A stretch of DNA of 64,000 bases, taken from the NCBI RefSeq assembly GCF_001719125.1, contig NZ_CP017006.1, positions 1,178,001 to 1,242,000 of the forward strand, in the 5' to 3' direction. The notes under the pieces are model-generated. The model searched no databases. It was not told the DNA's origin and was given only the letters and a program-made list of their open reading frames with translations. Origin of the DNA: Sulfolobus sp. A20 (lineage in GTDB: Archaea; Thermoproteota; Thermoprotei_A; Sulfolobales; Sulfolobaceae). The position numbers were made by a program, and so were the translations under genes. This document shows, piece by piece, positions 12,036 through 47,096 of the stretch. Position 1 is the stretch's first letter. Each line of letters opens with the position of its first letter.

Positions 12036-12239
12036 AAAATTGATATACTTTTCCTCCCTTATTTGCTTATCTTTTTTGAGGAGTTAACCTTCTCCCTACC
12101 TTGAAGGATGTTAGCTAAATTTCCTTCTATTTTAGACATCAAAGTTTTCTTAAGACAAGGACATCAAACTATAAATTAATCTATAACAATCGGAGAGTTG
12201 AAAGGGCATAATACAATTTTTAACATATTTTAAAAAAGT

Positions 12240-12590
12240 AAAACTACGCTCATCTAACCTCCTCCTTACCCTAAAGGTTCCCTTAGGCTGCTCACTGGTT
12301 TATGGTTTACCGCCTTCACCACTTCATAGCTAGTGGGCTTTGAGCCCGCTCTATTAGTCCAGCGATGGCTGCGTCTTCAGCTAGATTAACCCTATCCCTT
12401 GGGTAGAGGAAGCCCCTACTCCACCCTCCTCGAGACTTAGGGATATGTAATGAGGAGGAAGGACACACTCTCACTATCTCCTTTTTTGGCTTCTCTCCTC
12501 CCCAATGATCTTTCTTCACTTAAAAACCTTATCCCACCAAAGGGCGAGGCTTGTCGTTCTCTTTGTCATGACTAAGTTTAATTTAACTTA
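12240..12590 (-). mobile_element. Decayed IS200/IS605-like end with tnpB C-terminal remnant
   Basis: On the minus strand AAGCCTCGCCCTTTGGTGGG comes first (about 12550). It is followed by a CCTCCTCATTACATATCCC...GAGGAGGG segment and then a 67-codon frame at 12316-12519. The tail of that frame, after a one-base shift, continues AVNHKPVSSLREPLG to a stop near 12255. The hairpin words match the dispersed remnants elsewhere in the window. I read it as the tnpB 3' end plus right-end/guide-RNA region of an IS200/IS605-type element. The 67-codon ORF is not a functional gene in my view. The family assignment is from memory of such ends and needs ISfinder. Confidence 0.45.
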
Positions 12591-12708
12591 AAGTCCTTTT
12601 TCTCCATAATAATATTATTCAGATTTTTTAACTTTACTAACTTTTTTATATAGTATAAAATCTTTTAAAAATTGATAAAAAATTTTTAGTTACCTTTCTC
12701 GCTCTTTC

Positions 12709-12804
12709 CTACCACTCTTCATCTTCTTCTTCAAGATCGAAATCCTCAAATTCTTCCTCTTCTTCCCAATCTTCTTCTTCCCAATCTTCTTCCTCAAACA
12801 TCAT
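12709..12804 (-). CDS. 31-residue ultra-acidic peptide
   Basis: An ATG-ATG start at 12804/12801 opens a frame of 31 codons ending in TAG at 12709. The peptide is almost only Glu and Asp, with Trp/Phe at regular places: MMFEEEDWEEEDWEE, then FEDFDLEEEDEEW. There is no Lys or Arg. The word EEEDW repeats. A GGTG Shine-Dalgarno-like word precedes the start and a T-rich run follows the stop on the minus strand (AAAAATTTTTTAT at 12674-12690), as expected for an expressed unit. A GAA-rich simple repeat with no coding role is the alternative, but the TGG codons, in-frame stop and flanking signals favour a gene. The function is unknown. Confidence 0.5.
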   Translation of the reverse strand: MMFEEEDWEEEDWEEEEEFEDFDLEEEDEEW

Positions 12805-13592
12805 AAATTATAGCACCACATAAAACTTCAGTATAGAGTTAAAACGTTTTTGGGTCTAATATGTTAAGGGAATTGTAAAGTAAATAGAGAAAAAGAAGGA
12901 GAATAACCAGCCATGAATTTTTATTATTAAAATATGAGGTACTTTTAAAAATATTTTATAATGTTAAAAATAAGGTAGATTATAAGAATTATTACCCTTT
13001 AATTTTTTACGGGAGGATTTCAATCTTTGTTTCTAAATGAAAAGTATTTAATTATATGCTTAAGAGAAGGCGTATAAATAAAAAGTTTTTAAGTATAGAA
13101 CAAAGAATGGGCTAAAAGAGAAAGTTTTTAATTTTATCAAAAAAGTATTTCATTTCAATATGCTATAATTTGAAGATTTAAACTCTTGGTTAAGTTAAAG
13201 ATGTTCTTAATATCCCTCAGTAAGATTCTTGCTGAACAGTTATGATTCACTTGTCATACCATTTGCTTATACCATAGTATGAAATGAAATCTCTTAGATG
13301 GAAAGAAGAAACCTTGCCCTTTAGGTTGAAACCTTTAAACGCTCTTCCTATAAATAGTTATGGGGAGTAAAGATGAAAAGTGATTAAGCTATCACCAGGG
13401 ATGCCTACAGTAATAATTGAAGTGGATCATTCTTACGGATAGTATATTTTCTAGTAATTATCTTAAAAATTATAGATTTCGCTCGCCCTATTCGGATCCG
13501 TTTGTCTAATAGCGTTCATATTTCGATAAATAAAGAAGCTGAAAAAATGCCTTTAAGGAGAACTCAATTGGAGAAAAGTAAATAAAAACTCC
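12805..13592. other. Gene-poor AT-rich stretch with possible decayed coding fragments
   Basis: No intact gene is visible. Two short coding-like pieces occur on the plus strand. A GTG at 13380 opens 20 codons (VIKLSPGMPTVIIEVDHSYG) to a stop at 13442. A start-less frame from about 13470 to 13584 contains FARPIRIRLSNSVHIS. Neither is recognised. With the IS remnant to the left, the region looks like old decay. Confidence 0.3.
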
Positions 13593-19700: not shown

Positions 19701-20648
19701 GTGGCTAAAATTCCACTTGTTGGAAAGGAAAGTATATCTCCAGAAGATATGGGTTTCACGTTAATTCACGAACATTTAAAGGTTTTTAGTGAGGCAGTAA
19801 GATTTCAATGGCCTCATTTATACAATGAGGAAGAGGAATTTAAAAACGCTGTAGATGAGGTGAGAAAAGCGATGAACTATGGTGTAAAGACGATAGTAGA
19901 CCCTACTGTGATGGGATTAGGAAGGGATATAAGATTTATGGAGAAGGTAGTTAAAGAAACTGGGATAAATTTAGTGGCAGGAACTGGGATATACACTTAT
20001 ACTGATTTACCCTTTTACTTTACTCAGAGATCAATCGAGGAGATAGCTGAACTTTTCATACACGATATAAGGATAGGTATTCAAGGTACTGATAATAAGG
20101 CTGCTTTTATAAAGATAGCAGCTGATGAGCCGGGTATTACTAAAGATGTAGAGAGGGTTATTAGAGCAGCAGGAATTGCCCACAAAGAGACTAAAGTCCC
20201 CATAATTACACACTCAAATGCTCATAATAATACTGGAATGGAACAGCAGAGAATATTGATGGAAGAAGGTGTTGATCCGGGCAAAATTCTGATTGGACAT
20301 TTAGGGGATACTGAGAACGTGGAGTATATAAAGAAAATCGCTGATAAAGGGTCTTTCGTTGGTTTAGATAGGTATGGATTAGACTTGTTTTTGCCAGTAG
20401 AAAAAAGAAATGAGGTATTGATTAGATTAATAAAAGATGGTTATGCAGATAAAATAATGGTATCTCATGATTATTGTTGTACCATAGATTGGGGAACAGC
20501 CAAACCAGAATATAAACCTAAACTAGCCCCTAGGTGGAGTATGACCCTAATATTCACAGATGTAATACCTTCATTAAGGAAGTCGGGAGTTAAAGATGAC
20601 GTAATAGAGTTAATATTTGTAAATAACCCAGCCAAGCTTTTCAGCTAA
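19701..20648 (+). CDS. Phosphotriesterase-like lactonase (SsoPox-type)
   Basis: The 315-residue amidohydrolase-fold enzyme closely resembles the lactonase SsoPox. All binuclear metal ligands are present: His23/His25 (HEH), carbamylated Lys138 (KIAADEPG), His171 (THSNAH), His200 (GHLGD) and Asp257 (SHDYCC). The family hydrolyses acyl-homoserine lactones and oxo-lactones, with weak phosphotriesterase activity. The start is GTG at 19701, giving the usual N-terminus. It overlaps the convergent FAH-family gene by 8 bp. Here it stands among acyl-CoA genes, so opening of lactones formed from hydroxy-acids is a plausible role. Quorum quenching is the textbook alternative. Confidence 0.93.
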   Translation: MAKIPLVGKESISPEDMGFTLIHEHLKVFSEAVRFQWPHLYNEEEEFKNAVDEVRKAMNYGVKTIVDPTVMGLGRDIRFMEKVVKETGINLVAGTGIYTYTDLPFYFTQRSIEEIAELFIHDIRIGIQGTDNKAAFIKIAADEPGITKDVERVIRAAGIAHKETKVPIITHSNAHNNTGMEQQRILMEEGVDPGKILIGHLGDTENVEYIKKIADKGSFVGLDRYGLDLFLPVEKRNEVLIRLIKDGYADKIMVSHDYCCTIDWGTAKPEYKPKLAPRWSMTLIFTDVIPSLRKSGVKDDVIELIFVNNPAKLFS

Positions 20649-23724: not shown

Positions 23725-25716
23725 ATGAAGGTAGAAGACATTAAGAAAATCCTGATTATAGGAGCCGGAACGATGGGTCATGGAATAGCTGAAGTCGCAG
23801 CGATAGCAGGTTATCAAGTATACTTAAGTGACGTTTCCCAAGATATATTGAATAATGCCATTGAGAGGATTAAGTGGAGTTTGAGTAAACTTCAAGAAAG
23901 GGGACAATTAAAGGAAAGTGTCGACACAATTCTATCCAGAATAAAAACAGTAGTGGGTTTAGATAATACTGTAAGTGACGCCGACTTCTCTATAGAGGCT
24001 TCACCTGAAAGGTTAGACATTAAAAGGCAAGTGTTCTCCAAACTTGATGAGTTATTACCGAAACACGCTATATTGGCGACGAATACTAGTAGTCTACCTA
24101 TTACTAAAATAGCTGAAGCGACGAAGAGACCGGAAAAAGTAGTTGGGATGCACTTCTTTAACCCACCTGTGTTAATGCAATTAGTAGAGGTTATGAAAGG
24201 AGATAGAACCAGTGATGAAACGGCTAAGATAACGTATGATTTAGCTAAAAGGTTTGGAAAACAACCAATTATGATTAACAAGGATATTCCAGGTTATGTA
24301 GTTAATAGAATTTTAGGTGGGATTAATCTAGCATCATGTATCGTTGTGGAGAAGAAAATTGCTGACTTTAGAGAAGTTGATGCGGTAGCTAGGTATAAAC
24401 TTGGATTTCCTATGGGCGTTTTTGAACTCCTCGATTACACTGGAATTGATGTAGCTTATTACGTTTCGAAATCTAGAGAGGAATTGGGAATTAGGGACGA
24501 CGTGCCTATCTGTAGCTTAATAGAGGAAAAGTTTAAGAAAAATGAGTTAGGCGTAAAGACTGGCAAAGGATTTTATACTTATCCAGCTCCAGGTAAATAC
24601 ATTAAACCAGAAATACCAAAGGAGTTGGCTGATAAGCTAAATCCTGCGTTACTTCTAGCTGGCGCCATAAACGAAGCGTCAAGATTATTGAGAGAGAGTG
24701 TAGCTAGTAGAGATGATATAGATCTAGGAGTTAGATTAGGCTTAGGATTTCCTAAGGGCATTTTCCAATACGCTGATGAATTAGGAATTGATAATGTAAT
24801 TAAAGCTCTAGACGAACTAAAAACTTTGTCAGGATACCAAGTTTACTCACCAGACCCACTTTTGACTCAAATGGCTAGTCAAGGTAAATTAGGTATAAAA
24901 AGCGGAATAGGCTTTTACCAATATGGTAAGGTTGAGGAAAAAAGGCTTAATACGATTATTGTTAGAATTGAGCCTCCGTTAGCATGGATCGTTTTGAATA
25001 GACCAGATAGGTTAAATGCCTTAAATGCAGAGTTGATAAGCGAACTAGATAAGGTACTGGATGAGTTAGAAACTAACAATGAAGTAAGAGTCGTAGTAAT
25101 AACTGGTAACGGTAGGGCATTCTCTGCTGGAGCTGATATAACTTCGTTTGTAACATTAAGACCTATTGATGTAATAAGATTGAGAACCTTGAGAAATGTG
25201 TTAAATAAAATCGCGTTATATACTAAACCAATCATAGCTGCTCTAAATGGGTTCGCATTAGGTGGAGGACTAGAATTAGCCATGGCTTGTGATATAAGGA
25301 TTGCCTCTGAAGTAGCTCAACTAGGCCAACCAGAGATTAACATAGGGATAATTCCAGGAGCAGGAGGTACTCAAAGACTTCCAAGGCTTATAGGAAAGGG
25401 TAGGGCAAAATTAATGATATATACTGGTGATATGGTTAGTGCAGAAGACGCATATAAAATGGGCCTGGTTGATGTGATAGTTCCTGCAAATAGATTTGAG
25501 GACGAAGTTAGAAGAGTAGCATTAAAGATAGCCGAGAAGTCCCCACTCTCATTATTAGCTGCTAAATTGGCAATAGAATTAGGCTATGAGTCAAATATAT
25601 GGACAGGGCAGACATTGGAGTCTACATTGTTTGGCTTACTATTTACTACCAAAGACGTAGAAGAGGGTGTAAGGGCTTTCTTGGAGAAAAGGAAGCCTCA
25701 ATTTAAGGGAGAATAA
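23725..25716 (+). CDS. Fused 3-hydroxyacyl-CoA dehydrogenase / enoyl-CoA hydratase
   Basis: The 663-residue bifunctional enzyme has the dehydrogenase first: NAD motif IGAGTMGHGIAE at residues 12-23, catalytic His in GMHFFNPP near 140, and two C-terminal helical domains to about 395. The crotonase domain follows: oxyanion-hole residues in FSAGADI near 470, and ALGGGLELAMACD near 512 with the catalytic Glu pair in that segment and in PEINIGIIPGAGGTQRLP. The same order is found in the Metallosphaera enzyme of the 3-hydroxypropionate/4-hydroxybutyrate cycle (crotonyl-CoA to acetoacetyl-CoA). It may serve that cycle, beta-oxidation, or both. Confidence 0.93.
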   Translation: MKVEDIKKILIIGAGTMGHGIAEVAAIAGYQVYLSDVSQDILNNAIERIKWSLSKLQERGQLKESVDTILSRIKTVVGLDNTVSDADFSIEASPERLDIKRQVFSKLDELLPKHAILATNTSSLPITKIAEATKRPEKVVGMHFFNPPVLMQLVEVMKGDRTSDETAKITYDLAKRFGKQPIMINKDIPGYVVNRILGGINLASCIVVEKKIADFREVDAVARYKLGFPMGVFELLDYTGIDVAYYVSKSREELGIRDDVPICSLIEEKFKKNELGVKTGKGFYTYPAPGKYIKPEIPKELADKLNPALLLAGAINEASRLLRESVASRDDIDLGVRLGLGFPKGIFQYADELGIDNVIKALDELKTLSGYQVYSPDPLLTQMASQGKLGIKSGIGFYQYGKVEEKRLNTIIVRIEPPLAWIVLNRPDRLNALNAELISELDKVLDELETNNEVRVVVITGNGRAFSAGADITSFVTLRPIDVIRLRTLRNVLNKIALYTKPIIAALNGFALGGGLELAMACDIRIASEVAQLGQPEINIGIIPGAGGTQRLPRLIGKGRAKLMIYTGDMVSAEDAYKMGLVDVIVPANRFEDEVRRVALKIAEKSPLSLLAAKLAIELGYESNIWTGQTLESTLFGLLFTTKDVEEGVRAFLEKRKPQFKGE

Positions 25717-26084: not shown

Positions 26085-27209
26085 TTATCCTTTAGGCATT
26101 CCTAATATAACTTCTCCCAATAAGTTACGTAGTATTTCGGAAGTACCTCCAGCTATTGTTATTGATCTAGAAGCTAACAGACCATAAGTAAATTCTGGAT
26201 TGAAACCAGCTTGTCTCTCCATAATCAGAGCATCAACTCCCATATTGCTCACTGCAATCTCATAAGCCTTCTGTATGCTCTCGGAAGCTACAAGCTTAAT
26301 TACAGCAGCCTCTGGTCCAACTACATATCCCTTCTTTATTCTTTCTAATAACCTCCTGTAAAAAGATCTTAATGCTACTACATCCTCAGCCAGATTAAAC
26401 AGCTGTTCATTGGAATATTTCTTTGATACATCTCTTAAAATTCTCTCTACAGCAAATAATATTGTACCAATATTAAATCGTTCATAGTTTAGAGTCGACA
26501 TCGCTACCTTCCAGCCTTCACCTATTTTTCCCACTAAGTTCTCCTTTGGAACTTTAACGTTATTAAAGTATACTGTATTAAATTCGGATCTTCCGGTTAT
26601 TTGCCTAATTGGACTAACCTTAATTCCTTCACTTTTCATGTCAACAATTACCATGGTCATTCCCTTATGCCTCTCTGAAGGATCTCCAGTTCGACCTAAA
26701 AGTAGGCAATAGTCTGCTATGTGTGCATAACTACTCCATATTTTCTGACCATTCACTAAGAAATGATCCCCCTTATCCTCAATCTTAGTCTTTATCCCAG
26801 CTAAATCCGAACCTGCATGAGGTTCAGAAAACCCTTGGCACCATATGTTTTCAGCAGTTAAAATTTTCTTTATGTATTTCTTCTTCTGTTCTTCAGTACC
26901 ATTAAGTAAAATAGTAGGTCCAACTACTGATACACCTAAACCTAAATTAGCATATGGTAATCCAGCCTTAGCGAATTCTTCTCTTACAATGATTTCCTTT
27001 AACGGGTCTTCTCCCCAACCACCATATTCTTTAGGCCAAGAAACGCCTAAATAACCTGCTTCATAAACTTTTCTTTGCCATTCTCTTAAGGCAGTTACAG
27101 ATGCTGAATCCCCCTTATTTTTAATCTCCTCCGGAACGTTTTTCTCGATCCATTCCCTAACATTATTCCTAAATTTTTCTAATTCCTCCTCATCTCTCAT
27201 AATTCCCAT
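26085..27209 (-). CDS. Acyl-CoA dehydrogenase
   Basis: The 374-residue protein has the full ACAD layout. An N-terminal helical domain is followed by the FAD/substrate motifs WCQGFSEPHAGSDLAG (near residue 118) and GQKIWSSYAHIADYCLLLGRT, and a C-terminal helical domain ending ITIAGGTSEILRNLLGE, the flavin-contact motif. It introduces an alpha,beta double bond into acyl-CoA and reduces ETF, which FixCX can oxidise. It lies 6 bp downstream of an acyl-CoA synthetase gene on the same strand, so activation and first oxidation are co-expressed. Chain length is not known. Confidence 0.92.
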   Translation of the reverse strand: MGIMRDEEELEKFRNNVREWIEKNVPEEIKNKGDSASVTALREWQRKVYEAGYLGVSWPKEYGGWGEDPLKEIIVREEFAKAGLPYANLGLGVSVVGPTILLNGTEEQKKKYIKKILTAENIWCQGFSEPHAGSDLAGIKTKIEDKGDHFLVNGQKIWSSYAHIADYCLLLGRTGDPSERHKGMTMVIVDMKSEGIKVSPIRQITGRSEFNTVYFNNVKVPKENLVGKIGEGWKVAMSTLNYERFNIGTILFAVERILRDVSKKYSNEQLFNLAEDVVALRSFYRRLLERIKKGYVVGPEAAVIKLVASESIQKAYEIAVSNMGVDALIMERQAGFNPEFTYGLLASRSITIAGGTSEILRNLLGEVILGMPKG

Positions 27210-27215
27210 CTCAAA

Positions 27216-28865
27216 CTATTTTGTAAAGTAATCTTTGTACTTTTCCTTTAAAACCTTTTTATCAAACTTTCCAACGCTAGTTTTAGGAATTTCCTTAACG
27301 AAAACTATATCGTCTGGCAATTGCCATTTAGCAAACCTCTGACCTAAATATTTTACTAAATCCTCCTTGGATACTTTACCTTCAAACTCTGGTTTTAATA
27401 TTACAAAAGCCAAGGGTCTTTCGCCCCACTTTGGATGAGGGACTCCAATCACAGTAGCTTCAGATACTGCTGGATGAGTCATCAAATAATTTTCTAGGTC
27501 TACAGTGCTTATCCATTCTCCACCACTTTTTATTACATCCTTAATTCTATCCACTATTTTTATGTATCCCATTTCGTCTACGACGGCTAGATCGCCCGTT
27601 TTCCACCACCTATCAACCCCATCACCAATAAAAGACTCTATAGTTCTAGGATCGTTATAATAAGATGCTGTCACCCAAAATCCCCTTACCAAGATCTCTC
27701 CAACGGTCTTCCCGTCGTGAGGTACCTCGTTTCCCGTAACGGGATCAACTACTTTCACATCTACGCCAAAGCTAGGTATTCCTTGTTTTCTCAGTAGATC
27801 AGTTAATTGTTCATTAGAATACTTTTCTCTCACTTTAGGTTTAACAACACTACCAGTTACAGAAGGAGTTGTTTCTGTAGTACCGTATCCTTGGCCTACT
27901 TGTATTCCAAAACTCATTAAGCCTATAACTAGGCTTAAAGGAGGTTCACTACCACCTATTAAAATCCTCGTGTTAGTGAAAACTGGTTTCTTCTCCATTT
28001 TCATTAAATAATTTAGAATAGAGTTAAATATTTCAGGAACTCCAGCAGTAACTGTGACCTTCTCGTTTATCATGAGATCTACTAAGTGTCCTACATTTTC
28101 TAAAGTGTACCTACCGGGAAAAACTAACTTAGAGCCTACAAGAGTAGCCCCCATGAAGCCTAACCAACCATTTACGTGAAACATGGGGACTAGTTGCATA
28201 AATGTATCATCAATTGTTAAATTCCTCGATATTACCAGAGTATTAAGAACTATAGATCTATGAGAATAGAATACTCCTTTAGGGTCACCAGTAGTTCCAG
28301 TAGTATAAGCAGAGTAACAAGCAGTCTTTTCATCAAACATAGGTATTTCATAATTACTATTATTTTCATTGATTAGTTCTTCATAGTTATGCACTCGTTG
28401 AAGTTTAGTTTCTATCCCTTTAGAAATAATTATGAATTCTTTCACTTTTATGTTGTTGGCTATACTTTCTATGATAGGTAAGAAATTTTCATTTAGTATT
28501 ATCAAACTCACACCAGAGTGGTTGATGATTTTAGCTAACTGTAATGGATGAAGTCTTGGATTTAATTCTACCATCACAGCTCCTACTGCTGGGATAGAGA
28601 AATATAGTTCATAGAATCTATGTGTGTTCCATTCAAGAACACCTATTCTATCACCCACTCTAATTCCTAAAGACTTTAAGGCGTTAGCAAACCTCTTAAT
28701 TCTATCATAAGCTTGAGAGTAAGTATATCTAAAAACCTTTCCATCCATCTCTCTTGAGACGATCTCTTGCTCTCCATACCACTTAGCTGTGTGAGAAATT
28801 ATCTGTGTGACATTCATTTGATAGTCGTCCATCATAGTAGATGGAAAACCCTTTATAATTTCCAT
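27216..28865 (-). CDS. AMP-forming fatty acyl-CoA synthetase
   Basis: The 549-residue ANL enzyme has YTTGTTGDPKG near residue 188, GQGYGTTETTPS near 328, the TGDLAVVDEMGYIKIVDRIKD segment near 425, and KTSVGKFDKKVLKE with the catalytic lysine near 530. It is of the FadD/medium-chain type. It heads the operon with the acyl-CoA dehydrogenase. Together the two genes provide fatty-acid activation and the first beta-oxidation step. It is not a recent copy of the synthetase at 17958-19616. Confidence 0.92.
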   Translation of the reverse strand: MEIIKGFPSTMMDDYQMNVTQIISHTAKWYGEQEIVSREMDGKVFRYTYSQAYDRIKRFANALKSLGIRVGDRIGVLEWNTHRFYELYFSIPAVGAVMVELNPRLHPLQLAKIINHSGVSLIILNENFLPIIESIANNIKVKEFIIISKGIETKLQRVHNYEELINENNSNYEIPMFDEKTACYSAYTTGTTGDPKGVFYSHRSIVLNTLVISRNLTIDDTFMQLVPMFHVNGWLGFMGATLVGSKLVFPGRYTLENVGHLVDLMINEKVTVTAGVPEIFNSILNYLMKMEKKPVFTNTRILIGGSEPPLSLVIGLMSFGIQVGQGYGTTETTPSVTGSVVKPKVREKYSNEQLTDLLRKQGIPSFGVDVKVVDPVTGNEVPHDGKTVGEILVRGFWVTASYYNDPRTIESFIGDGVDRWWKTGDLAVVDEMGYIKIVDRIKDVIKSGGEWISTVDLENYLMTHPAVSEATVIGVPHPKWGERPLAFVILKPEFEGKVSKEDLVKYLGQRFAKWQLPDDIVFVKEIPKTSVGKFDKKVLKEKYKDYFTK

Positions 28866-30673: not shown

Positions 30674-31114
30674 ATGGAATTGGTATATCCAAGTAAGGAA
30701 TGGGCTGAAGAATGGTGTAAAAGATTAAACGAAAGTAAAGAATATAATGATGCAGGTAAGGGATGGGTTGCTCCACTCTTATTCGTGGTAACTGACGTCC
30801 CTGGTCAAGTGATACAAAGTCTAGGTTTAAATAACGTTAACGCATTAGCTATGAAACTTTATTTAAATAATGGTCAATGTCAAGGTGTTGATTTCTTCAC
30901 CGATGTATCTAAGGCTGATGCTCCATACATTCTTGAGGGGAGTTATGAAACGTGGAAGAACATTATTTCAGGGAAACTGGAGGTAGTCTCTGCCCTTCTA
31001 TCCGGTAATATTAGGCTGAAAAAAGGGAGTTTATTCGACTTAGCCAGATATACTAGTGCGTCAGTTATAATGGCTAGGATATCGAACCAAATAAATACTA
31101 AATTCTTAGCTTGA
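30674..31114 (+). CDS. SCP2-like sterol/lipid-binding domain protein
   Basis: The 146-residue soluble protein resembles the SCP2 fold: MELVYPSKEWAEEWCKRLN at the N-terminus, a central sheet with CQGVDFFTDVSKADAPYILEGSY, and a C-terminal WKNIISGKLEVVSALLSGNIRLKKGSL segment typical of SCP2 proteins. It would bind acyl chains or acyl-CoA. It is divergent from the thiolase-fold gene and convergent with the TetR gene, overlapping the latter by 9 bp. If the ATG at 30659 is used instead, five residues are added. Confidence 0.8.
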   Translation: MELVYPSKEWAEEWCKRLNESKEYNDAGKGWVAPLLFVVTDVPGQVIQSLGLNNVNALAMKLYLNNGQCQGVDFFTDVSKADAPYILEGSYETWKNIISGKLEVVSALLSGNIRLKKGSLFDLARYTSASVIMARISNQINTKFLA

Positions 31115-31699
31115 TTTCGGTTTCAACATATTGGATAAAAGTAAATCTAAGTCATTTAATTGTTTATTTGTTAACCCTTCATTGGTCCATAGAATATATC
31201 TTCTACCTAACATTTCGCCTATTCCTATTAAAACGTATGATAATAATTCTGGATCTACACGTACTATTTCTCCTCTATTCATAGCTTCTTGTAAGCCTAT
31301 TCTATATCTTTCCGAGAGTTTATAGAAATGCCATATATACATTTCTGGTCTATGTACTTGAGCTTCCACAAATATCTTATAATATTTTTTATTTTCATCC
31401 ATCCATTCAAGAAACTTTCTCATACCTACCTTTTCTATCTCTATTCTATTTTGTAATCCCATAGTGTTAACTTTTAAATAATATCTCATATCTCTATTGA
31501 ATTTTCTAATTAATTCATCTAGTATATCATGCTTACTCTTGAAGTAAAAATAAAACAGACCATAAGCTACTCCAGCTTTACTAGTTATGTCACTAATACT
31601 CGTATTAAGAAAACCCCTTTCTGAAATAAGATCTACAGATGCATTAATTATCTTATTTAAAGTTTCCTTTCCTTTCTCAGTTTTAGGAGACCTATACAT
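31106..31699 (-). CDS. TetR-family regulator, FadR candidate
   Basis: The 197-residue protein has an N-terminal TetR helix-turn-helix (ISDITSKAGVAYGLFYFYFKSKHDIL, residues 41-66) and a helical ligand domain. It lies amid acyl-CoA genes. A TetR-family repressor (FadR) that senses acyl-CoA is known to control a comparable lipid gene cluster in Sulfolobus acidocaldarius. I infer the same role here. An imperfect dyad TGATTACTGAGTCA (31714-31727) sits between its TATA-like box (31736-31747) and its start, which suits autorepression. Confidence 0.87.
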   Translation of the reverse strand: MYRSPKTEKGKETLNKIINASVDLISERGFLNTSISDITSKAGVAYGLFYFYFKSKHDILDELIRKFNRDMRYYLKVNTMGLQNRIEIEKVGMRKFLEWMDENKKYYKIFVEAQVHRPEMYIWHFYKLSERYRIGLQEAMNRGEIVRVDPELLSYVLIGIGEMLGRRYILWTNEGLTNKQLNDLDLLLSNMLKPKSS

Positions 31700-31713: not shown

Positions 31714-31727
31714 TGATTACTGAGTCA
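31714..31727. promoter_or_regulatory. Imperfect dyad upstream of the TetR gene
   Basis: TGATTACTGAGTCA reads TGA(T/C)T at both ends on opposite strands. It lies 15-28 bp upstream of the TetR start and downstream of its TATA-like box, the position of an autorepressor operator. No binding data. Confidence 0.35.
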
Positions 31728-31902
31728 ATTCTCAAGCTATATAATAGTTTATATCTTATAAATTTTTCTCTAAATCTTAAACTACGTGTTAATTAGTTAT
31801 TATAGATTCATCCTTGTTATGTGTTTTCTTCACAATTATAAAAAATCTATAGTTAAATAAATTCATCAATATTTACACTACTGAGATTAGGGTCAATATT
31901 CA

Positions 31903-38994: not shown

Positions 38995-40041
38995 ATGAGA
39001 GCTGCAGTTTTTAGGGGAGTTAATAAACCCTTAGACCTAACTGAAGTTTCAGATCCAAAACCAAAGGGTGACGAAATATTAGTGAAAGTAGCATCGACTG
39101 GAATTTGTCATAGTGATTTACACTTAATTGATGGAGAGCTAGTTGGTCCTCTTCCGAATGGGTTTATCATAGGTCATGAAATATCCGGTTGGGTAGAGGA
39201 ATTAGGAAGTGATGTTAAGAATCCTTATGGATTAAAAAAGGGAGATCCAGTATTAGTCTCATGGATAGTACCTTGCGGAGTTTGCAGAAATTGTGCGAGT
39301 GGTAAAGAAAACTACTGTAAGAATGTAGCAAGTAAGTTAGTAGGAATTTTAGGAATCAATGGAGGACATGCTGAATACGTTTCAGTCCCTGAAATAGCTG
39401 TAATACCTTTAGCTAAAAATTTAGATCCTTATATTTCATCTCCAATAGCGTGTGCATATGGTACTGCGTATAATGCATTAAAAAGTGCTAAATCGACCAG
39501 CGGGAATAGTTTAGTGATCATAGGTGTAGGTGGCGTAGGTTCAGCTGCATTACAATTGGCTAATGCGATGGGGCTTTATCCCATCATAGCTGTTGATATC
39601 AATGAAAATAAACTTGAAAAAGCTAAGGAACTGGGAGCTACTTACGTTATTAATCCGTTAAATGAGGATACTAGATCTAAAATTATAGAAGTGTTAGGCG
39701 GTGGGGCTGATATTGTGTATGAGACTAAGCCAAATCCGGACTTGAGGTTATCCCTAGAAGTAGTTAAAGCTGGTGGGAGTATAGTTGTTACAGGATTAGG
39801 CGGTTTCACTCATTTAGCTCAAATACCTATAACTTATGTAGTATCCAATGGAATAAATATCATAGGAAGTTTAGGTTACAGACCTAGAATTGATCTACCA
39901 GAAATAGTCTCTCTAGCCTCCTCGGGTAAAATAGATATAAGGAAGTTGATATCGCATGTATATTATCCTGAACACATAAACGAAGCCTATGAGAATTTAA
40001 GGAAAGGTCTGCATATTAGAGCTGTTGTTAAGTGGAACTAA
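38995..40041 (+). CDS. Zinc-dependent alcohol dehydrogenase
   Basis: The 348-residue MDR-family enzyme has the catalytic zinc site CHSDLHLIDG and GHEISGWVEELG, the structural zinc lobe CGVCRNCASGKENYC (residues about 93-107, all four Cys present) and the NAD motif GVGGVGSAALQ near 180. It interconverts an alcohol and an aldehyde or ketone in the cytosol. It opens a run of plus-strand genes (dehydrogenase, SDR, R2lox, ACAD-like, thiolase), although gaps suggest separate promoters. Substrate is unknown; the family in Sulfolobus accepts medium-chain and aromatic alcohols. Confidence 0.92.
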   Translation: MRAAVFRGVNKPLDLTEVSDPKPKGDEILVKVASTGICHSDLHLIDGELVGPLPNGFIIGHEISGWVEELGSDVKNPYGLKKGDPVLVSWIVPCGVCRNCASGKENYCKNVASKLVGILGINGGHAEYVSVPEIAVIPLAKNLDPYISSPIACAYGTAYNALKSAKSTSGNSLVIIGVGGVGSAALQLANAMGLYPIIAVDINENKLEKAKELGATYVINPLNEDTRSKIIEVLGGGADIVYETKPNPDLRLSLEVVKAGGSIVVTGLGGFTHLAQIPITYVVSNGINIIGSLGYRPRIDLPEIVSLASSGKIDIRKLISHVYYPEHINEAYENLRKGLHIRAVVKWN

Positions 40042-40072: not shown

Positions 40073-40831
40073 ATGTATTCCTTAAAAGATAAGGTAGTTG
40101 TTGTAACTGGTTCTGGCAGAGGTATCGGTAGGGCTATTGCTGTAAGACTTGCTAAGGAAGGTAGCTTGTTAGTTGTTAATGCTAAGAAGAGGATTGAAGA
40201 AATGAATGAGACAATAAATATTATAAAGAGCGTAGGTGGAGAAGCTATTGGTGTGTTAGCAGATGTTTCAACTAGAGAGGGTTGTGAGACACTGCTTAAG
40301 GCTACGCTAGAAAGATATGGAGTTGTTGATGTTTTAGTGAATAATGCTGGTTTAGGATTGTACTCTCCGTTCATTAACGTTGACGATAAACTTTTAGATA
40401 AACATATTTCGACCGACTTCAAGTCAGTAGTCTATTGCTCACAAGTCTTCGCTAAAGAAATGAGAGAAAATGGGGCAATACTTAACATGGCTTCAGTTGC
40501 TGGAGTTTCACCTGCATACGGTTTATCAATATATGGTGCAATGAAGGCAGCTGTAATAGCGCTAACTAAATACTTAGCTTTAGAGTTATCCCCTAAAATA
40601 AGGGTAAACGCTATTGCTCCAGGCTTTGTGAAAACTAAGTTAGGAGAAAGTATGTTTCAGTTGCTTGGAATGACAGAGAAAGAGTTTGCACAAAAATTCA
40701 CTCTTATGGGCAAAATCTTAGATCCAGAGGAGGTTGCCGAATTCGTTACAGCAGTTCTCAAGATAGAATCGTTAACTGGTCAAGTGTTTGTGTTAGATTC
40801 GGGGGAAGCAATTAAGGGAGGGATTAAATAA
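40073..40831 (+). CDS. Short-chain dehydrogenase/reductase
   Basis: The 252-residue classical SDR has the cofactor motif TGSGRGIGRA (residues 12-21), NNAG near 87, catalytic Ser in NMASVAG near 140 and the YxxxK pair YGAMK near 156. It may be FabG/PhaB-like, acting on 3-oxoacyl-CoA or a related keto compound. It starts 31 bp after the alcohol dehydrogenase stop and is probably in the same transcript. Confidence 0.9.
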   Translation: MYSLKDKVVVVTGSGRGIGRAIAVRLAKEGSLLVVNAKKRIEEMNETINIIKSVGGEAIGVLADVSTREGCETLLKATLERYGVVDVLVNNAGLGLYSPFINVDDKLLDKHISTDFKSVVYCSQVFAKEMRENGAILNMASVAGVSPAYGLSIYGAMKAAVIALTKYLALELSPKIRVNAIAPGFVKTKLGESMFQLLGMTEKEFAQKFTLMGKILDPEEVAEFVTAVLKIESLTGQVFVLDSGEAIKGGIK

Positions 40832-40887
40832 TTTTTTCCTCTTAAAATTAATTAATATGTATTATATCATGTTCTAAGTTTTATAGG

Positions 40888-40900
40888 CAAAATTTAAATA
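40888..40900 (+). promoter_or_regulatory. Putative TATA box of the R2lox operon
   Basis: CAAAATTTAAATA lies 24-36 bp upstream of the ATG at 40924, so R2lox and the genes behind it likely form a separate leaderless unit. Confidence 0.5.
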
Positions 40901-40923: not shown

Positions 40924-41847
40924 ATGGGACTTAATTTTGAGGAATATAAGCATGAATACTTCAAATCTGTAAGGAAAGGAGGGATAGATTGGGCACTGTT
41001 TCCTATGAAACTTTACCAATTAGGTAAGAGGTTATTCTGGGATCCAGCTACGATAGATTTATCCAAAGACGTGGAGGATTGGAAAAAATTAAGTGATTTA
41101 GAGAAATTATTTATAATAAACGTAGGGTCTAAGTTCTCGGCTGGAGAGGAGGCAGTAGCTTTAGATCTTCATCCTTTAATAGTTACACTGGTTAAAGAGG
41201 GCAGAGTTGAAGAGGTTATGTATTTAGAGCAATTCGTTTATGAAGAATCTAAACACGTTGAGGCTTTTAGAAGATTTTTTGATGCTGTAGGGGTTAAGGA
41301 GGATTTAACGGCATTCACTAAAGAGTTATCACCTAACTATAGGAAGATATTTTATGAAGAATTACCGAAGGCAATGTGGAATTTATCTAAGGATCAATCA
41401 CCTGAGAATGAAGTTAAGGCTGTTGTCACATATAACCTAATAGTTGAAGGTGTTGCAGCTGAAGGAGGATACAATATATTTAGATACATAAACAAGAAAT
41501 TTAACATACTCCCGGGATTGGGTAAGATGGTAAATTGGATTGCAACTGACGAATCAAGACATATCGCATTTGGGGTATATTTAATAGCTAGACTCATAAA
41601 AGAATGGGGGGAGAGAGTATATAAGGTAGCTATGGATCATTTGAATTACTTAGCTCCCTACGCTATAGGAATATTTTCAGAACCAGGCGTTCCTCAAGAA
41701 GGTAAGATACCTTTTGACCTAACCCCGGAAGTAACTGTTGAATACGCTAAGAAATTATTAAATGTGAGGATAGACGCTGTTAATAGAGCTAAGGAAATGA
41801 AGTTAGAGATGCTTACTCCTAAGGATTTAGGCGTTATAGAACAGTGA
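40924..41847 (+). CDS. R2-like ligand-binding oxidase (R2lox)
   Basis: The 307-residue ferritin-fold di-metal protein carries the full R2lox set: metal ligands Glu75, Glu108, His111, Glu175, Glu210 and His213. It also has Val78 and Tyr170, the two residues that form the ether cross-link in characterised R2lox proteins (spacings Glu75+3 and Glu175-5). It is not a class Ia ribonucleotide reductase subunit; the radical Tyr context and partner gene are absent. R2lox uses a Mn/Fe cofactor and binds a long fatty acid in known structures. Here it is followed after 11 bp by an acyl-CoA-dehydrogenase-like gene and a thiolase, which suggests an oxidation in fatty-acid metabolism. Confidence 0.92.
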   Translation: MGLNFEEYKHEYFKSVRKGGIDWALFPMKLYQLGKRLFWDPATIDLSKDVEDWKKLSDLEKLFIINVGSKFSAGEEAVALDLHPLIVTLVKEGRVEEVMYLEQFVYEESKHVEAFRRFFDAVGVKEDLTAFTKELSPNYRKIFYEELPKAMWNLSKDQSPENEVKAVVTYNLIVEGVAAEGGYNIFRYINKKFNILPGLGKMVNWIATDESRHIAFGVYLIARLIKEWGERVYKVAMDHLNYLAPYAIGIFSEPGVPQEGKIPFDLTPEVTVEYAKKLLNVRIDAVNRAKEMKLEMLTPKDLGVIEQ

Positions 41848-41858
41848 TGGTGAGATAA

Positions 41859-42749
41859 ATGTTACTAGATTTAAATTTTGAAATTAGTGAAGACTTAAAG
41901 CTAATTCTGAATAGCCTAAAGGAAACCTTAGATTCACAATGGAGCACAAAGAAGTTAAGATCAGTAATAGAGGGTAATAAGGAATACGTTGACCAGATAT
42001 GGAAGGAAATAATTAGGCTTGAAATCCTGCCTTACATTTCTAATTCATCCCTCAAAGACGTAGTTATATTAAATGAATTGATAGGAAGCAGATTATTGCC
42101 CGGAATAGTTGCAAGTAGTATTATTGCGTCTAGGGGAATTAAGGATAAGGATGTATTGAACAAATTGTATGCAGGTGAAGTGAAAATAGCTATTTCTGAT
42201 TCTAACATGGTACCATCTGGAGATCAAGCTGATCTTATATTGATAAATAATAAGTTAATTAAGAGGAAAGAGTGCAACAGTATTATTACTTTTAATTCAT
42301 TGGATAATACAATGAAAATTAGTAAAGTAGAATGTAACAGTAATGAGACAATAGAAGTTAATAATGCCGAAATTGCCTTATTACTATCTTCACAGATGTT
42401 GGGAAGTGGAGAAGAAGTCTTGAACATGTCCGTTAAGTATAGCAAGGAGCGAATAGCGTTTGGAAAACCTATAGGTTCTTATCAAGCAATAAAGCATAGG
42501 GTAGTAAATGACGCAATAGATATTGAACTAACGAGGTCTATTGTTTTAGAGGCTTCAGAAAATATAAAATATGCTTGGTTAGCTAAGGATATTGCTAATA
42601 GGAAAGTACCTAAAGTAATTATGAGTGGTATTCAAGTTCATGGAGGAATAGGATTTACTGATGATATCGATATCCATTTGCATTTAAGGAGAGCGTTAAC
42701 GCTGAGTAAAATATATAATGAAAGAATTAATATATCTGAGTTTCTATGA
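41859..42749 (+). CDS. Shortened acyl-CoA-dehydrogenase-like protein
   Basis: At 296 residues this is about 80 shorter than a normal acyl-CoA dehydrogenase. The N-terminal helical part (to about 105) and the C-terminal helical domain with RIAFGKPIGSYQAIKHR and VHGGIGFTDDIDIHLHLRRA are kept. The middle beta domain is reduced to about 50 residues. A GGTGA ribosome-binding word at 41850-41854 precedes the ATG. Partial ACAD subunits are known in heterotetrameric FadE complexes of mycobacteria; this one may pair with a full-length ACAD encoded elsewhere. Loss of activity is also possible. Confidence 0.75.
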   Translation: MLLDLNFEISEDLKLILNSLKETLDSQWSTKKLRSVIEGNKEYVDQIWKEIIRLEILPYISNSSLKDVVILNELIGSRLLPGIVASSIIASRGIKDKDVLNKLYAGEVKIAISDSNMVPSGDQADLILINNKLIKRKECNSIITFNSLDNTMKISKVECNSNETIEVNNAEIALLLSSQMLGSGEEVLNMSVKYSKERIAFGKPIGSYQAIKHRVVNDAIDIELTRSIVLEASENIKYAWLAKDIANRKVPKVIMSGIQVHGGIGFTDDIDIHLHLRRALTLSKIYNERINISEFL

Positions 42750-42789
42750 AGAATTATCAGATACGCATATAAATGATCAACTGCAAATA

Positions 42790-43998
42790 ATGTTTTGGAG
42801 TGGGAAAGTGTTAGAAGAAGTTTATCTGGTAGATTTTCTTAGAACACCTTTCACGAGATTCACTAGAAAGGAACCACAGAAGGATCCTTTCTATAATTTA
42901 AGACCAGAGGAAATAGCCAGTTTGGTTATCAATAAGTTGATTGAGAAAAATGGAATAAATCCTAGTGAAATAGACGAAATAATAACTGGATGTGCGTTAC
43001 AAGTAGGTGAACAGTGGTCTTTTGGAGGTAGACATGAGATTTTTGCCGGCAAATTGCCTTATACGATTCCTACTATGGCTGTGGATAGGCAATGTGCATC
43101 TTCACTATCAACTGTGAGTATAGGGGCAATGGAAATAGCAAGTGGGATGGCTGATATAATAATTGCAGGAGGAGTCGAGAAAATGTCAAAAACACCTATG
43201 TTTGACAATCCACATATAGAAATAAATACTAAATTTCTAACGGATCCTAAATACTCTGATTACGATTTGACTACTGGCTATGTAATGGGATTAACTGCCG
43301 AAAAATTAGCTGAAGAAGGTAGAATAAGTAGGGAAGAAATGGATAAATGGTCATTGAGGAGTCATCAGTTAGCGTGGAGAGCAACTCAAGATGGTTATTT
43401 TAGAGGAGAGATAATATCGGTAGAGGTAGAAGGAGAAGGTGGAAAGAAGATAACTCTGAACTCTGACCAGTCAATAAGACCTGATACAAGTCTTGAGAAA
43501 TTATTACAATTACCTCCTGCATTCAAGCCAAATGGATCAATTACCGCCGGTAACTCAGCTCCACTCAATTCCGGAGCTTCTTATGTTTTATTAATGTCTA
43601 AAGAAGCTGTGAAAAAGTACGGACTTACTCCAATGGCAAGGATATTAAGCTTTGGTTTTGCCGGAGTTCCTCCTGCCGTTATGGGAAAGGGACCAGTCCC
43701 TGCTTCTAAAAAAGCTCTAGAAAAAGCCAGACTGAGCCCTAAAAATATAGATTTATGGGAAATAAATGAAGCTTTTGCTGTAGTAGTACTTTACGCCATA
43801 AAACAGTTAGAGCTAGATGAGAACTCAGTTAATAAGAGAGGTGGGGCTATCGCAATAGGTCATCCTTTAGGAGCGACTGGAGCTAGACTGGTAGGAACGC
43901 TAGCGAGACAACTCATATTAGAGGGAAAAGATCACGGTGTAGCTACCTTATGTGTAGGCGGAGGTCAAGGGGGAGCAATAGTTTTGGAAAGAGCTTAA
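42790..43998 (+). CDS. Acetyl-CoA C-acyltransferase (thiolase)
   Basis: This canonical thiolase of about 402 residues has the nucleophilic Cys in DRQCASSLSTVSIGAME, the His in GGAIAIGHPLGATGARL and the C-terminal Cys in TLCVGGGQGGA. It cleaves 3-oxoacyl-CoA with CoA, the last beta-oxidation step, or runs in reverse. The annotated start is the ATG at 42790; GTG at 42808 with GGAG at 42796 is an alternative. An in-frame upstream ATG at 42718 lies inside the preceding gene and is less likely. It ends the R2lox/ACAD-like unit and overlaps the convergent reductase by 4 bp. Confidence 0.93.
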   Translation: MFWSGKVLEEVYLVDFLRTPFTRFTRKEPQKDPFYNLRPEEIASLVINKLIEKNGINPSEIDEIITGCALQVGEQWSFGGRHEIFAGKLPYTIPTMAVDRQCASSLSTVSIGAMEIASGMADIIIAGGVEKMSKTPMFDNPHIEINTKFLTDPKYSDYDLTTGYVMGLTAEKLAEEGRISREEMDKWSLRSHQLAWRATQDGYFRGEIISVEVEGEGGKKITLNSDQSIRPDTSLEKLLQLPPAFKPNGSITAGNSAPLNSGASYVLLMSKEAVKKYGLTPMARILSFGFAGVPPAVMGKGPVPASKKALEKARLSPKNIDLWEINEAFAVVVLYAIKQLELDENSVNKRGGAIAIGHPLGATGARLVGTLARQLILEGKDHGVATLCVGGGQGGAIVLERA

Positions 43999-44999
43999 TC
44001 ACTTCTAATTAATATTTTTCCATATCTATTTTTATCCCTTAGCATCTCTAAAGCCTTGCCAAATTCCTCTATACTCACTTCTCCTCCTATTATAGGTTTT
44101 ATCTTACCGTTCTTAACCATATTTAAAGCCTCTATAATGTCTTTCTTATTTGCACCTGCATGACCTATTAAACTAATATCTTTCAATATTAGGTAGCCTA
44201 ATTTCAAGTTATAGGATATTGACGGATCTAAATTTCCTATCTGTATAATTTTACCTCCTTGCCTAACCGTCTTCATGCTCTCATCTAGAGTAGCAGTTCC
44301 TACGTTTTCAATTACGACTGAAACGTCTCCTATCCTTTTGGCTTCTTCTGCAAATTTATTTCCAACAATTACATAATCGGCAAACTTAGAGACTATTTTA
44401 GCCTTTTCTTCATTACTGGTAACCCCTATTACTTTACAGCCTAAAGCCTTCGCTACTTGAAGAGCATGAATTCCGACGCCTCCACTCGAACCAGTAACTA
44501 AAACTAAGTCTCCAGCCTTTACATCAGCTTTCTTTAAGCCTCTATATACCATTGCAATTACACAAGGTACTACTAATGCTCCCTCATCATTTACACCCTC
44601 CGGTACCTTTAATAAGCTATTAGCTTTAACTATGCCTTTTTCGGCAAAGAAACCATCCAACTCTTGAGCATAGAGTAATTTATTTTTACAATAAACTTCC
44701 TCACCTAACTTACAGTGTTCGCAAGAAAAATCCGGAACGAATAGCATCGAGGTCACTTTTTCACCTTCTTTAAAATCTATAACATCTTCACCTACTTCCT
44801 CAATAGTTCCTACCACTTCATGACCCAATATTAAAGGATATTTTGACCTTGGATAAAAGCCTTCAATCTGCAAAAGATCTCTGTAGCAAAGAGATGCCTT
44901 ATTTACTTTTATAACTACTTCATCTTTCTGCGGCTTTGGCTCCTTAATGTTTTCTATCTTATATCCTTGTTTGTAGCCGGGGAGAATTACGGCTTTCAT
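43995..44999 (-). CDS. Zinc-type MDR reductase, acryloyl-CoA reductase-like
   Basis: The 334-residue MDR-family protein (MKAVILPGYKQGYK start at 44999, three codons after an upstream in-frame start) resembles the Sulfolobales acryloyl-CoA reductase of the 3-hydroxypropionate/4-hydroxybutyrate cycle. It has LCYRDLLQIEGFYPRSKYPLILGHEVVGTIEEVG, a cysteine lobe (CEHCKLGEEVYC) and NADP motif SSGGVGIHALQ. It probably reduces an enoyl-CoA such as acryloyl-CoA with NADPH. Alternatively it is a paralogue acting on other enoyl-CoAs of fatty-acid metabolism. Confidence 0.85.
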   Translation of the reverse strand: MKAVILPGYKQGYKIENIKEPKPQKDEVVIKVNKASLCYRDLLQIEGFYPRSKYPLILGHEVVGTIEEVGEDVIDFKEGEKVTSMLFVPDFSCEHCKLGEEVYCKNKLLYAQELDGFFAEKGIVKANSLLKVPEGVNDEGALVVPCVIAMVYRGLKKADVKAGDLVLVTGSSGGVGIHALQVAKALGCKVIGVTSNEEKAKIVSKFADYVIVGNKFAEEAKRIGDVSVVIENVGTATLDESMKTVRQGGKIIQIGNLDPSISYNLKLGYLILKDISLIGHAGANKKDIIEALNMVKNGKIKPIIGGEVSIEEFGKALEMLRDKNRYGKILIRSD

Positions 45000-45054
45000 A
45001 CATAACATATGTTAATTGTCTAATTAAAATTTATTCTAAAAAATTGTAATATTT

Positions 45055-45972
45055 TTAGAAGGAATTATAGAAAGCTCTTTTCAATGTTTGTCCGATTAAA
45101 CCTATAGCATCCATTCCTTGATCTATTATCGAGAAGAAGGATACAAATCCGTGAATCACATTATTAAATCTAACACTTGTTACCTTAACTCCCGATTGTA
45201 ACAGTTTATTTGCATAAGCTTCTCCTTGATCTCTTAATGGATCGTATTCAGCAGTAATAATTAATGCTGGAGGTAGTCCGGTTAGATCGGCGATTATAGG
45301 TGAAAATCTGTAATCTAATAAGTCAGCTGGGCTTCTTAAATACTGGGAACCGAACCACTCTATTTGGTCTCTAGTTAAAAAATACCCCTCTGAATACTCT
45401 ACTAATGATCTTGAAACGTTATCTAGGCTGACAGCAGGATATATTAATATTTGGTATTTGAGATTTATGTTATTTCTCTTTGCAAGTATAGCAACTACAG
45501 CAGTTAAATTTCCTCCTGCACTATCTCCACCAATAGCTACTCCCATTTCCCCATGAAGCTTTTCTGCATTTTCGTATATCCACTTCATGGCATCAAAGGA
45601 GTCTATAACAGCCGAAGGAAATTTATGCTCTGGAGCTAATCTGTAATCTACCGAAGCTACGATGCAATTACAAGCGTTTGTTAAAGCTCTGCACAATGGA
45701 TCATAAGTCTCTATATCGCCTATTACAAAACCTCCACCATGGAAGTAAACTAGAATTCCATAAGGTCCGTTAGATTTAGGATAATATAGCCTAACAGGTA
45801 TCGTAGCTTCACTACCTGGAACTTTAATGTCTTCAATTTTTCCAACATCCATTCTTGGGGCTTGTGAAGAAAGATCTCTAAATACTTTTCTTATCTCCTC
45901 TACGGGGGCTTTACCTATAGGTATGTTAAAACCTGAGTCTAATAACTTCTTCAATTTAGGGTCTAGTGGCAT
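45055..45972 (-). CDS. HSL-family carboxylesterase
   Basis: The 305-residue alpha/beta hydrolase of the hormone-sensitive lipase family has the oxyanion motif HGGGFVIGD near residue 78, the nucleophile elbow GDSAGG near 149, the acid in EYDPLRDQ near 245 and the His in VIHGF near 275. It hydrolyses short- to medium-chain esters in the cytosol. Similar thermostable esterases are known from Sulfolobus. It is a single gene upstream of the reductase on the same strand, 55 bp away. Confidence 0.93.
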   Translation of the reverse strand: MPLDPKLKKLLDSGFNIPIGKAPVEEIRKVFRDLSSQAPRMDVGKIEDIKVPGSEATIPVRLYYPKSNGPYGILVYFHGGGFVIGDIETYDPLCRALTNACNCIVASVDYRLAPEHKFPSAVIDSFDAMKWIYENAEKLHGEMGVAIGGDSAGGNLTAVVAILAKRNNINLKYQILIYPAVSLDNVSRSLVEYSEGYFLTRDQIEWFGSQYLRSPADLLDYRFSPIIADLTGLPPALIITAEYDPLRDQGEAYANKLLQSGVKVTSVRFNNVIHGFVSFFSIIDQGMDAIGLIGQTLKRAFYNSF

Positions 45973-46658: not shown

Positions 46659-47096
46659 TTAAGAGTTTTGTATTTTCTTCCATTTTCTCCAATCGCCAAA
46701 TTTCTTATCGTATTCTGGGCATCCTCTTCTCCAGTTTATTCCTCCTATCCAATCAACGTTAACAAAAATATCATAAAATTTCTTCTCGTTTAAACTTACT
46801 TTTTCCTTTATATAATATTTTATACTATCTATGAATTGTCTCATTTCATCTTCCGTATTAAAGTAGAAAATGATTACTCCCTTACTCATTAAATTGATTG
46901 GGAAAGGAAATAAAGTATACTTACCAGGCATATCTTTGACGTTTTTTAAAAACTCATCTAGAGGTACCTTTAGCGAACTAATAGGAACTCCTAATTTATA
47001 ACAATATAATGAATTATTGTGTTGTAGTCCCTTTTCGAACGATAACCAGCAATCTTTACATTTACCCCAATTCTTTCCAAATCCAATCCACTCCAT
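46659..47096 (-). CDS. Small cysteine-containing protein of unknown function
   Basis: The 145-residue protein is rich in Trp and Lys and has [11 protein letters not shown] with a third Cys (SLYCYKLG) at residues 13-32, and a further Cys near the end ([14 protein letters not shown]). The arrangement could hold a metal or Fe-S cluster. No family is recognised. It lies 2 bp from the Fe-type alcohol dehydrogenase gene and 56 bp from the MinD-like gene, all on the minus strand, so the three are probably one operon. Confidence 0.65.

Follow-up and report, generated by a model that had tools for sequence, protein, structure and literature searches.

What an R2-like ligand-binding oxidase (R2lox) does in a cell that places it among genes for fatty-acid breakdown is the question raised by this locus. 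R2lox proteins are widespread and structurally well known, and their function is unsettled. The locus lies in a 64,000-nucleotide stretch (the window) of a 2.69-Mb chromosome; the six closest relatives among the compared genomes share the genus of the source, for which we use the label Saccharolobus, inferred from the genes present and from the position of S. acidocaldarius in a sister genus. Profile, PDB and alignment evidence identify the oxidase itself, a 307-residue protein encoded at 40924–41847 (+ strand). It scores 602 bits against the NCBIfam family NF006198 'R2-like ligand-binding oxidase' (cut-off 274), its best PDB match is 7QBK, S. acidocaldarius R2lox homolog II (E 9e-166), and the second is 6QRZ, the other R2lox of S. 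acidocaldarius. A class I ribonucleotide reductase (RNR) small subunit is ruled out, since RNR families reach at most 81 bits for this protein, below their own cut-offs. S. solfataricus SSO2498 has been assigned to the R2lox clade, and a class II RNR has been reported in that species (PMC5134839). In our R2lox tree, ortholog II forms a fully supported clade of nine rows with SaR2loxI as its sister (support 87/87), the deep position of several long branches being unsure. The initial annotation had described all metal ligands and the Val78/Tyr170 cross-link pair as intact, and each of them maps onto a GkR2loxI residue in the HMMER alignment with 4HR0: E75/E108/H111/E175/E210/H213 correspond to E69/E102/H105/E167/E202/H205, and V78/Y170 to V72/Y162 (GkR2loxI numbering and ligand list from PMC10867098). 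The active site is shown by this alignment to be intact as far as its residues can be read.

R2lox opens a trio of genes on the same strand. Exactly 11 bp downstream, a gap that a recount bears out as first given, begins a short acyl-CoA dehydrogenase (ACAD) homolog of 296 residues (41859–42749, + strand), followed by an acetyl/acyl-CoA thiolase of 396 residues (42808–43998, + strand). The thiolase had likewise been called at the outset and is real, matching NF005033 at 721 bits and carrying the motifs DRQCAS, NEAFA, GHPLGA and CVGGG; its predicted start is likely GTG 42808 rather than the first ATG at 42718, because the orthologs begin there. The order is not unique to this strain but is kept in all nine Sulfolobaceae genomes that have ortholog II (seven Saccharolobus and two Sulfolobus). 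Behind the trio, all nine carry a convergent acryloyl-CoA-reductase-like gene and then an esterase, represented in the window by an acryloyl-CoA reductase-type Zn oxidoreductase (43995–45008, − strand) and a hormone-sensitive-lipase-type esterase (45055–45972, − strand; Saci_1116 in S. acidocaldarius, PMC6449355). The genes 5′ of the trio differ, being an alcohol dehydrogenase (ADH) and a short-chain dehydrogenase (SDR) in Saccharolobus and an acyl-CoA ligase in Sulfolobus; therefore, the trio stayed linked through rearrangement. In the window, the ADH is a Zn enzyme (38995–40041, + strand) of the same type as the ADHs beside other R2lox genes, and the SDR, FabG-like by profile, lies directly 5′ of R2lox (40073–40831, + strand). 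Comparison of the upstream regions revealed a BRE/TATA-like element, GCAAAATTTAAATA, at approximately 40887–40900 (+ strand), some 35 nt ahead of the ATG of R2lox, which is common to seven of seven Saccharolobus genomes and present as a variant in Sulfolobus, as well as GGTGA-type ribosome sites before the ACAD gene. We infer a transcription start that would probably leave the R2lox mRNA leaderless, and the TATA-like element and GGTGA sites are consistent with one transcript with a leaderless first gene. A sigma-70/terminator scan gave chance-level results and is uninformative for an archaeon.

The proposal of a single unit of R2lox, ACAD and thiolase holds for the conserved trio and falls short in extent, the real unit being a larger lipid cluster that is predicted to be under FadR control. 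The window contains a FadR ortholog, a TetR-family regulator (31106–31699, − strand) 74% identical to FadRSa (Saci_1107), together with the remaining genes of a FadRSa-type cluster. Among them are a fused 3-hydroxyacyl-CoA dehydrogenase/enoyl-CoA hydratase for the middle steps of beta-oxidation (23725–25716, + strand) and an AMP-forming acyl-CoA ligase homolog, recognised by sequence and by homologs in relatives (27216–28865, − strand). We take the G022 chromosome (2,225,959 bp) to be that of S. acidocaldarius DSM 639, in agreement with a control match in the R2lox search; its trio lies at 915.0–918.1 kb. The FadRSa-repressed cluster, Saci_1103–1126, occupies 903–932 kb; Saci_1107 encodes FadR itself, and Saci_1105 and Saci_1116 encode esterases (PMC6449355). 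Exactly eight genes stand between FadR (1107) and esterase 1116 at the G022 trio locus, and therefore, by counting between these anchors, R2lox, the short ACAD and the thiolase of S. acidocaldarius are Saci_1112, 1113 and 1114. In a FadR mutant, RNA-seq and qPCR found thirteen cluster genes significantly and the others slightly upregulated, and loss of FadR led to quicker growth on hexanoate (PMC6449355). When 95 RNA-seq sets were decomposed by independent component analysis, a FadR module of 19 genes emerged, Saci_1103–1122 minus 1107, which is switched on when FadR is knocked out and when nutrients are limiting (PMC8578740). This number omits no gene of the range, and the trio is therefore included. 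The window R2lox is thus shown to belong, through its ortholog, to a published regulon and co-expression module.

A candidate FadR operator, TGAGAATTGACTCA (31721–31734, − strand), lies 22 bp 5′ of the fadR ortholog and resembles the duplicated TGATAGTCGACTCA of the Saci_1106/1107 intergenic region; the pattern was built from both species, which makes the exact TGAGAATTGACTCA match one by construction that counts as a lead only. A search with this pattern found the site beside fadR only and none near R2lox, and the FadR sites of S. acidocaldarius are themselves far from most promoters (PMC6449355). The main text of the FadR paper (PMC6449355) mentions neither ribonucleotide reductase nor Saci_1112–1114, and neither Saci_1112 nor Saci_1113 is named in any searchable paper. 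Both the placement of homolog II in the FadR regulon and the ACAD pairing described below appear unremarked in the searchable literature, and in that sense new.

The second gene of the trio had been annotated as a reduced ACAD. It is truly short, with Pfam matching the C-terminal ACAD domain only; it is, however, probably a beta subunit with a partner elsewhere in the window and not a stand-alone dehydrogenase. As judged from its own orthologs and from local alignments to PDB ACADs (a MAFFT alignment of short against full-length ACADs being unreliable in the C-terminal half), it is without the FAD motif SEPxAGSD, and Asn287 replaces the catalytic Glu of the J-K loop, with Asn in nine of nine orthologs. 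Its top NCBIfam profile is IpdE2, at 112 bits against a cut-off of 450, which makes it by score a distant IpdE2 relative and not IpdE2 itself. A structure model built from the nine close orthologs was poor (pLDDT 58.5), and 13 diverse rows gave a good one (86.4); the top fold match of this second model is the steroid ACAD Tcur3481-Tcur3483 (IpdE1-IpdE2; 6wy8), with other ACADs close behind. The proposed alpha partner is a full-length ACAD of 374 residues (26085–27209, − strand), which has the SEPxAGSD motif and a helix-G-like Glu243, and whose top profile is the large subunit (PimC) of pimeloyl-CoA dehydrogenase, a two-subunit enzyme. In each of 31 Sulfolobaceae genomes, short ACADs and full-length ACADs of the 26085–27209 clade occur in equal numbers, from 0 to 3 copies, at chosen thresholds that leave out two borderline short-ACAD matches in G022 and G023 (E near 1e-11, both within ORFs as long as an ordinary ACAD). 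Such equality arose in 0 of 100000 permutations, which ignore phylogeny. Where there is a second short/full-length pair, its two genes are mostly no more than about 4 kb apart; in the window, the alpha candidate is 14.6 kb from the short ACAD and belongs to the same regulon in S. acidocaldarius. Because the short protein has neither the FAD motif nor the Glu, resembles IpdE2 and PimD, and is paired one-for-one with a full-length ACAD, it is most likely the non-catalytic beta subunit of a putative heteromeric ACAD. A role as electron or obligate partner of R2lox was rejected as the main reading, since G027–G030 carry the short and full-length ACADs without R2lox.

R2lox itself is patchily distributed: ortholog II is absent from 22 of the 31 Sulfolobaceae genomes, and any R2lox occurs in only three of 87 genera of the class. 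Some Sulfolobaceae that have no R2lox still carry FadR/ACAD genes, so R2lox is dispensable for basic beta-oxidation. In the FadR cluster of one relative, G005, the SDR is followed directly by the thiolase, with neither R2lox nor the short ACAD between them (the genome is 79% complete, and this stretch is continuous); on this ground, R2lox and the short ACAD behave as a present/absent cassette within a working beta-oxidation set. Beyond the family, we compared 60 R2lox loci with full 10-kb flanks, nearly all from Actinomycetota, mostly Pseudonocardiaceae, and not phylogenetically independent: 46 of them have an acyl-CoA ligase no more than 5 kb from R2lox, as against one of 60 at 5–10 kb. The probes used detected no ACAD near R2lox in these loci, and R2lox-ACAD-thiolase as a general order is rejected (0/60); among the R2lox genes examined, it is confined to Saccharolobus and Sulfolobus. 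ADHs adjoin R2lox in Gordonia, in a Bacillota MAG, in another Sulfolobaceae genus and at a Sulfolobus paralog. On Rhodococcus plasmids, the neighbours of R2lox are a ferredoxin, an FAD oxidoreductase, an NDMA-dependent alcohol dehydrogenase, an aldehyde dehydrogenase and a fatty-acid ligase, and on a Mycobacterium plasmid they are a ligase and an alcohol dehydrogenase. Genes of these kinds would be expected to accompany a hydroxylase if the alcohol that it makes goes on to be oxidised and activated to acyl-CoA. No ferredoxin or reductase gene stands next to the archaeal R2lox.

Given this regulon and these neighbours, we propose as the probable role of R2lox that of an accessory O2-activating enzyme of FadR-controlled lipid and fatty-acid catabolism, which would hydroxylate a chain that then enters beta-oxidation, an idea already in print for Geobacillus. 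The Mn/Fe (or Fe/Fe) centre would oxygenate an aliphatic chain held in the fatty-acid tunnel, most likely by hydroxylation; the nearby alcohol dehydrogenase and SDR would then oxidise the alcohol, and an acyl-CoA ligase would activate the product. Beta-oxidation would follow through the heteromeric ACAD (alpha subunit 26085–27209, beta subunit 41859–42749), the fused hydroxyacyl-CoA dehydrogenase/hydratase and the thiolase, and acyl-CoA would release FadR and thereby switch the cluster on. We infer the hydroxylation by the window R2lox, its substrate, the position of attack and the electron donor, and the hydroxylase reading draws on the Rhodococcus plasmid set of ferredoxin, reductase, alcohol and aldehyde dehydrogenases and ligase. 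The suggestion that the beta-oxidation genes offer a rare clue to an R2lox pathway is strengthened by the conserved unit and by the published co-expression of its orthologs (PMC6449355, PMC8578740), although such a clue is not new in kind (PMC10867098). More speculatively, R2loxII and the archaeal heteromeric ACAD could together be dedicated to bulky or isoprenoid/branched aliphatic chains, with the Mn/Fe oxygenase opening those that ordinary beta-oxidation is unable to begin on, which, if true, would be the first genetically placed physiological role of R2lox in archaea. With the structurally solved S. acidocaldarius homolog II placed in an experimentally defined FadR regulon and beside a probable two-subunit ACAD, the pathway hypothesis becomes concrete, and it concerns an archaeon in which gene deletion is established.

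Other readings of the same genes are less probable. R2lox might instead be a desaturase, a decarboxylase or an alpha/beta-hydroxylase acting on a CoA-linked or free fatty acid and clearing chains on which the ACAD cannot start, for example branched or isoprenoid ones, in place of a hydroxylase of alkanes or terminal carbons. We regard this as unlikely, if the best placed of the alternatives. The paired ACAD speaks for it, since it belongs to the heteromeric kind known from steroid and dicarboxylate breakdown (the short protein like IpdE2, the long one like pimeloyl-CoA dehydrogenase), as do the acceptance of bulky or unusual chains by such ACADs and the fatty acids that co-purify with R2lox as ligands (PMC10867098, with reference to Griese 2013 and Diamanti 2022). 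However, many other ACAD folds score close behind the steroid ACAD, and PMC10867098 cites negative aldehyde deformylation tests for two R2lox proteins and states that the bound hydroxy acid undergoes no further turnover. Still less probable is a non-catalytic R2lox, serving as a fatty-acid-binding, O2- or metal-responsive sensor or store in which the cross-link is a one-time activation. Here it counts that the only R2lox chemistry to be firmly established is the Val-Tyr cross-link, which arises when O2 is activated with a fatty acid bound (PMC6399176), and that the archaeal unit has no electron donor gene; yet the catalytic residues are invariant in the alignment columns across strongly diverged R2lox copies, and the Rhodococcus plasmids do place ferredoxin and reductase genes beside R2lox. 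That the linkage of R2lox and short ACAD is a frozen accident, a joint arrival or retention with no common pathway, is very improbable: the patchy distribution of R2lox and the occurrence of the short ACAD without it would fit, but the trio outlasted upstream rearrangement between genera, and its genes are regulated together in S. acidocaldarius (PMC8578740).

The window R2lox and its unit can be set beside four known systems. S. acidocaldarius R2lox homolog II (7QBK) is the direct ortholog; the two proteins share about 79% identity across 306 residues, have the same gene order behind them and show no difference of substance, except that the Saccharolobus copy in the window has an ADH and an SDR upstream and not an acyl-CoA ligase. 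GkR2loxI (GK2771) of Geobacillus kaustophilus has the same ligand and cross-link residues and sits in a beta-oxidation/alkane gene cluster, with a claimed alkane hydroxylase activity (PMC10867098); it is bacterial, far less similar (about 197 bits) and embedded in another gene order. Its alkane hydroxylation is suggested, not settled, because the loss of alkane was seen with crude recombinant extracts and mutating a ligand reduced it only modestly (PMC10867098). The window ACADs resemble IpdE1-IpdE2 (Tcur3481-Tcur3483) and PimC-PimD, the short one being like IpdE2 and 6wy8 and the long one like PimC, with the FAD motif in the long one only; they differ in being archaeal, of low identity and encoded by non-adjacent genes, and their assembly is a proposed one. 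In gene content, the parallel is the FadRSa regulon, Saci_1103–Saci_1126, of which the window has orthologs or homologs of FadR, ACAD, the fused HBD/ECH, ligase, R2lox, short ACAD, thiolase, esterases and glycerol kinase, although the Saccharolobus gene order is rearranged, and FadR control, established for S. acidocaldarius, is predicted for the window. Placement in the FadR regulon agrees with the independent gene neighbourhoods of R2lox in Rhodococcus, Mycobacterium and Geobacillus.

Two further genes lie near the lipid genes of the window. One, at 19701-20648, has the appearance of a phosphotriesterase-like lactonase, and no counterpart to it was seen in the S. acidocaldarius cluster. As an idea only, lactones could arise from hydroxy acids made by an oxygenase. 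The other, at 46659-47096, codes for a conserved, functionally uncharacterised protein of 145 aa; this gene accompanies the lipid cluster in Saccharolobus and also adjoins the SDR-thiolase pair in G005, a relative without R2lox and the short ACAD. Elsewhere, a 1.55-kb stretch (12040-13590) contains no ORF of at least 80 aa; a segment of ~200 bp within it (12249-12446) is repeated at two other loci (L043 and L045) with 68% identity, and is therefore a dispersed element. No Rfam family scored above threshold anywhere within the 64-kb window.

The short ACAD of the window strain has a C-terminus three residues shorter than that of all eight orthologs compared, its TGA stop (42747-42749) standing where most orthologs carry a Gln codon. 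A second pairing of full-length and short ACADs, with a 144-145 aa gene in between, is found in the same genome (L163, G000:C1:160517-163021), and this triad recurs in several genera.

In G020, R2lox is split over two reading frames of 160 and 115 aa (L049:8909-9704), flanked by an aldehyde dehydrogenase on one side and an alcohol dehydrogenase on the other, representing either a frameshifted copy or a sequencing error. The genome of the window itself encodes a second, distant R2lox (44%; L046, G000:C1:2482035-2482742), which adjoins acyl-CoA ligases and an ACAD-like gene; S. acidocaldarius possesses a related paralog, likewise adjoining a ligase.
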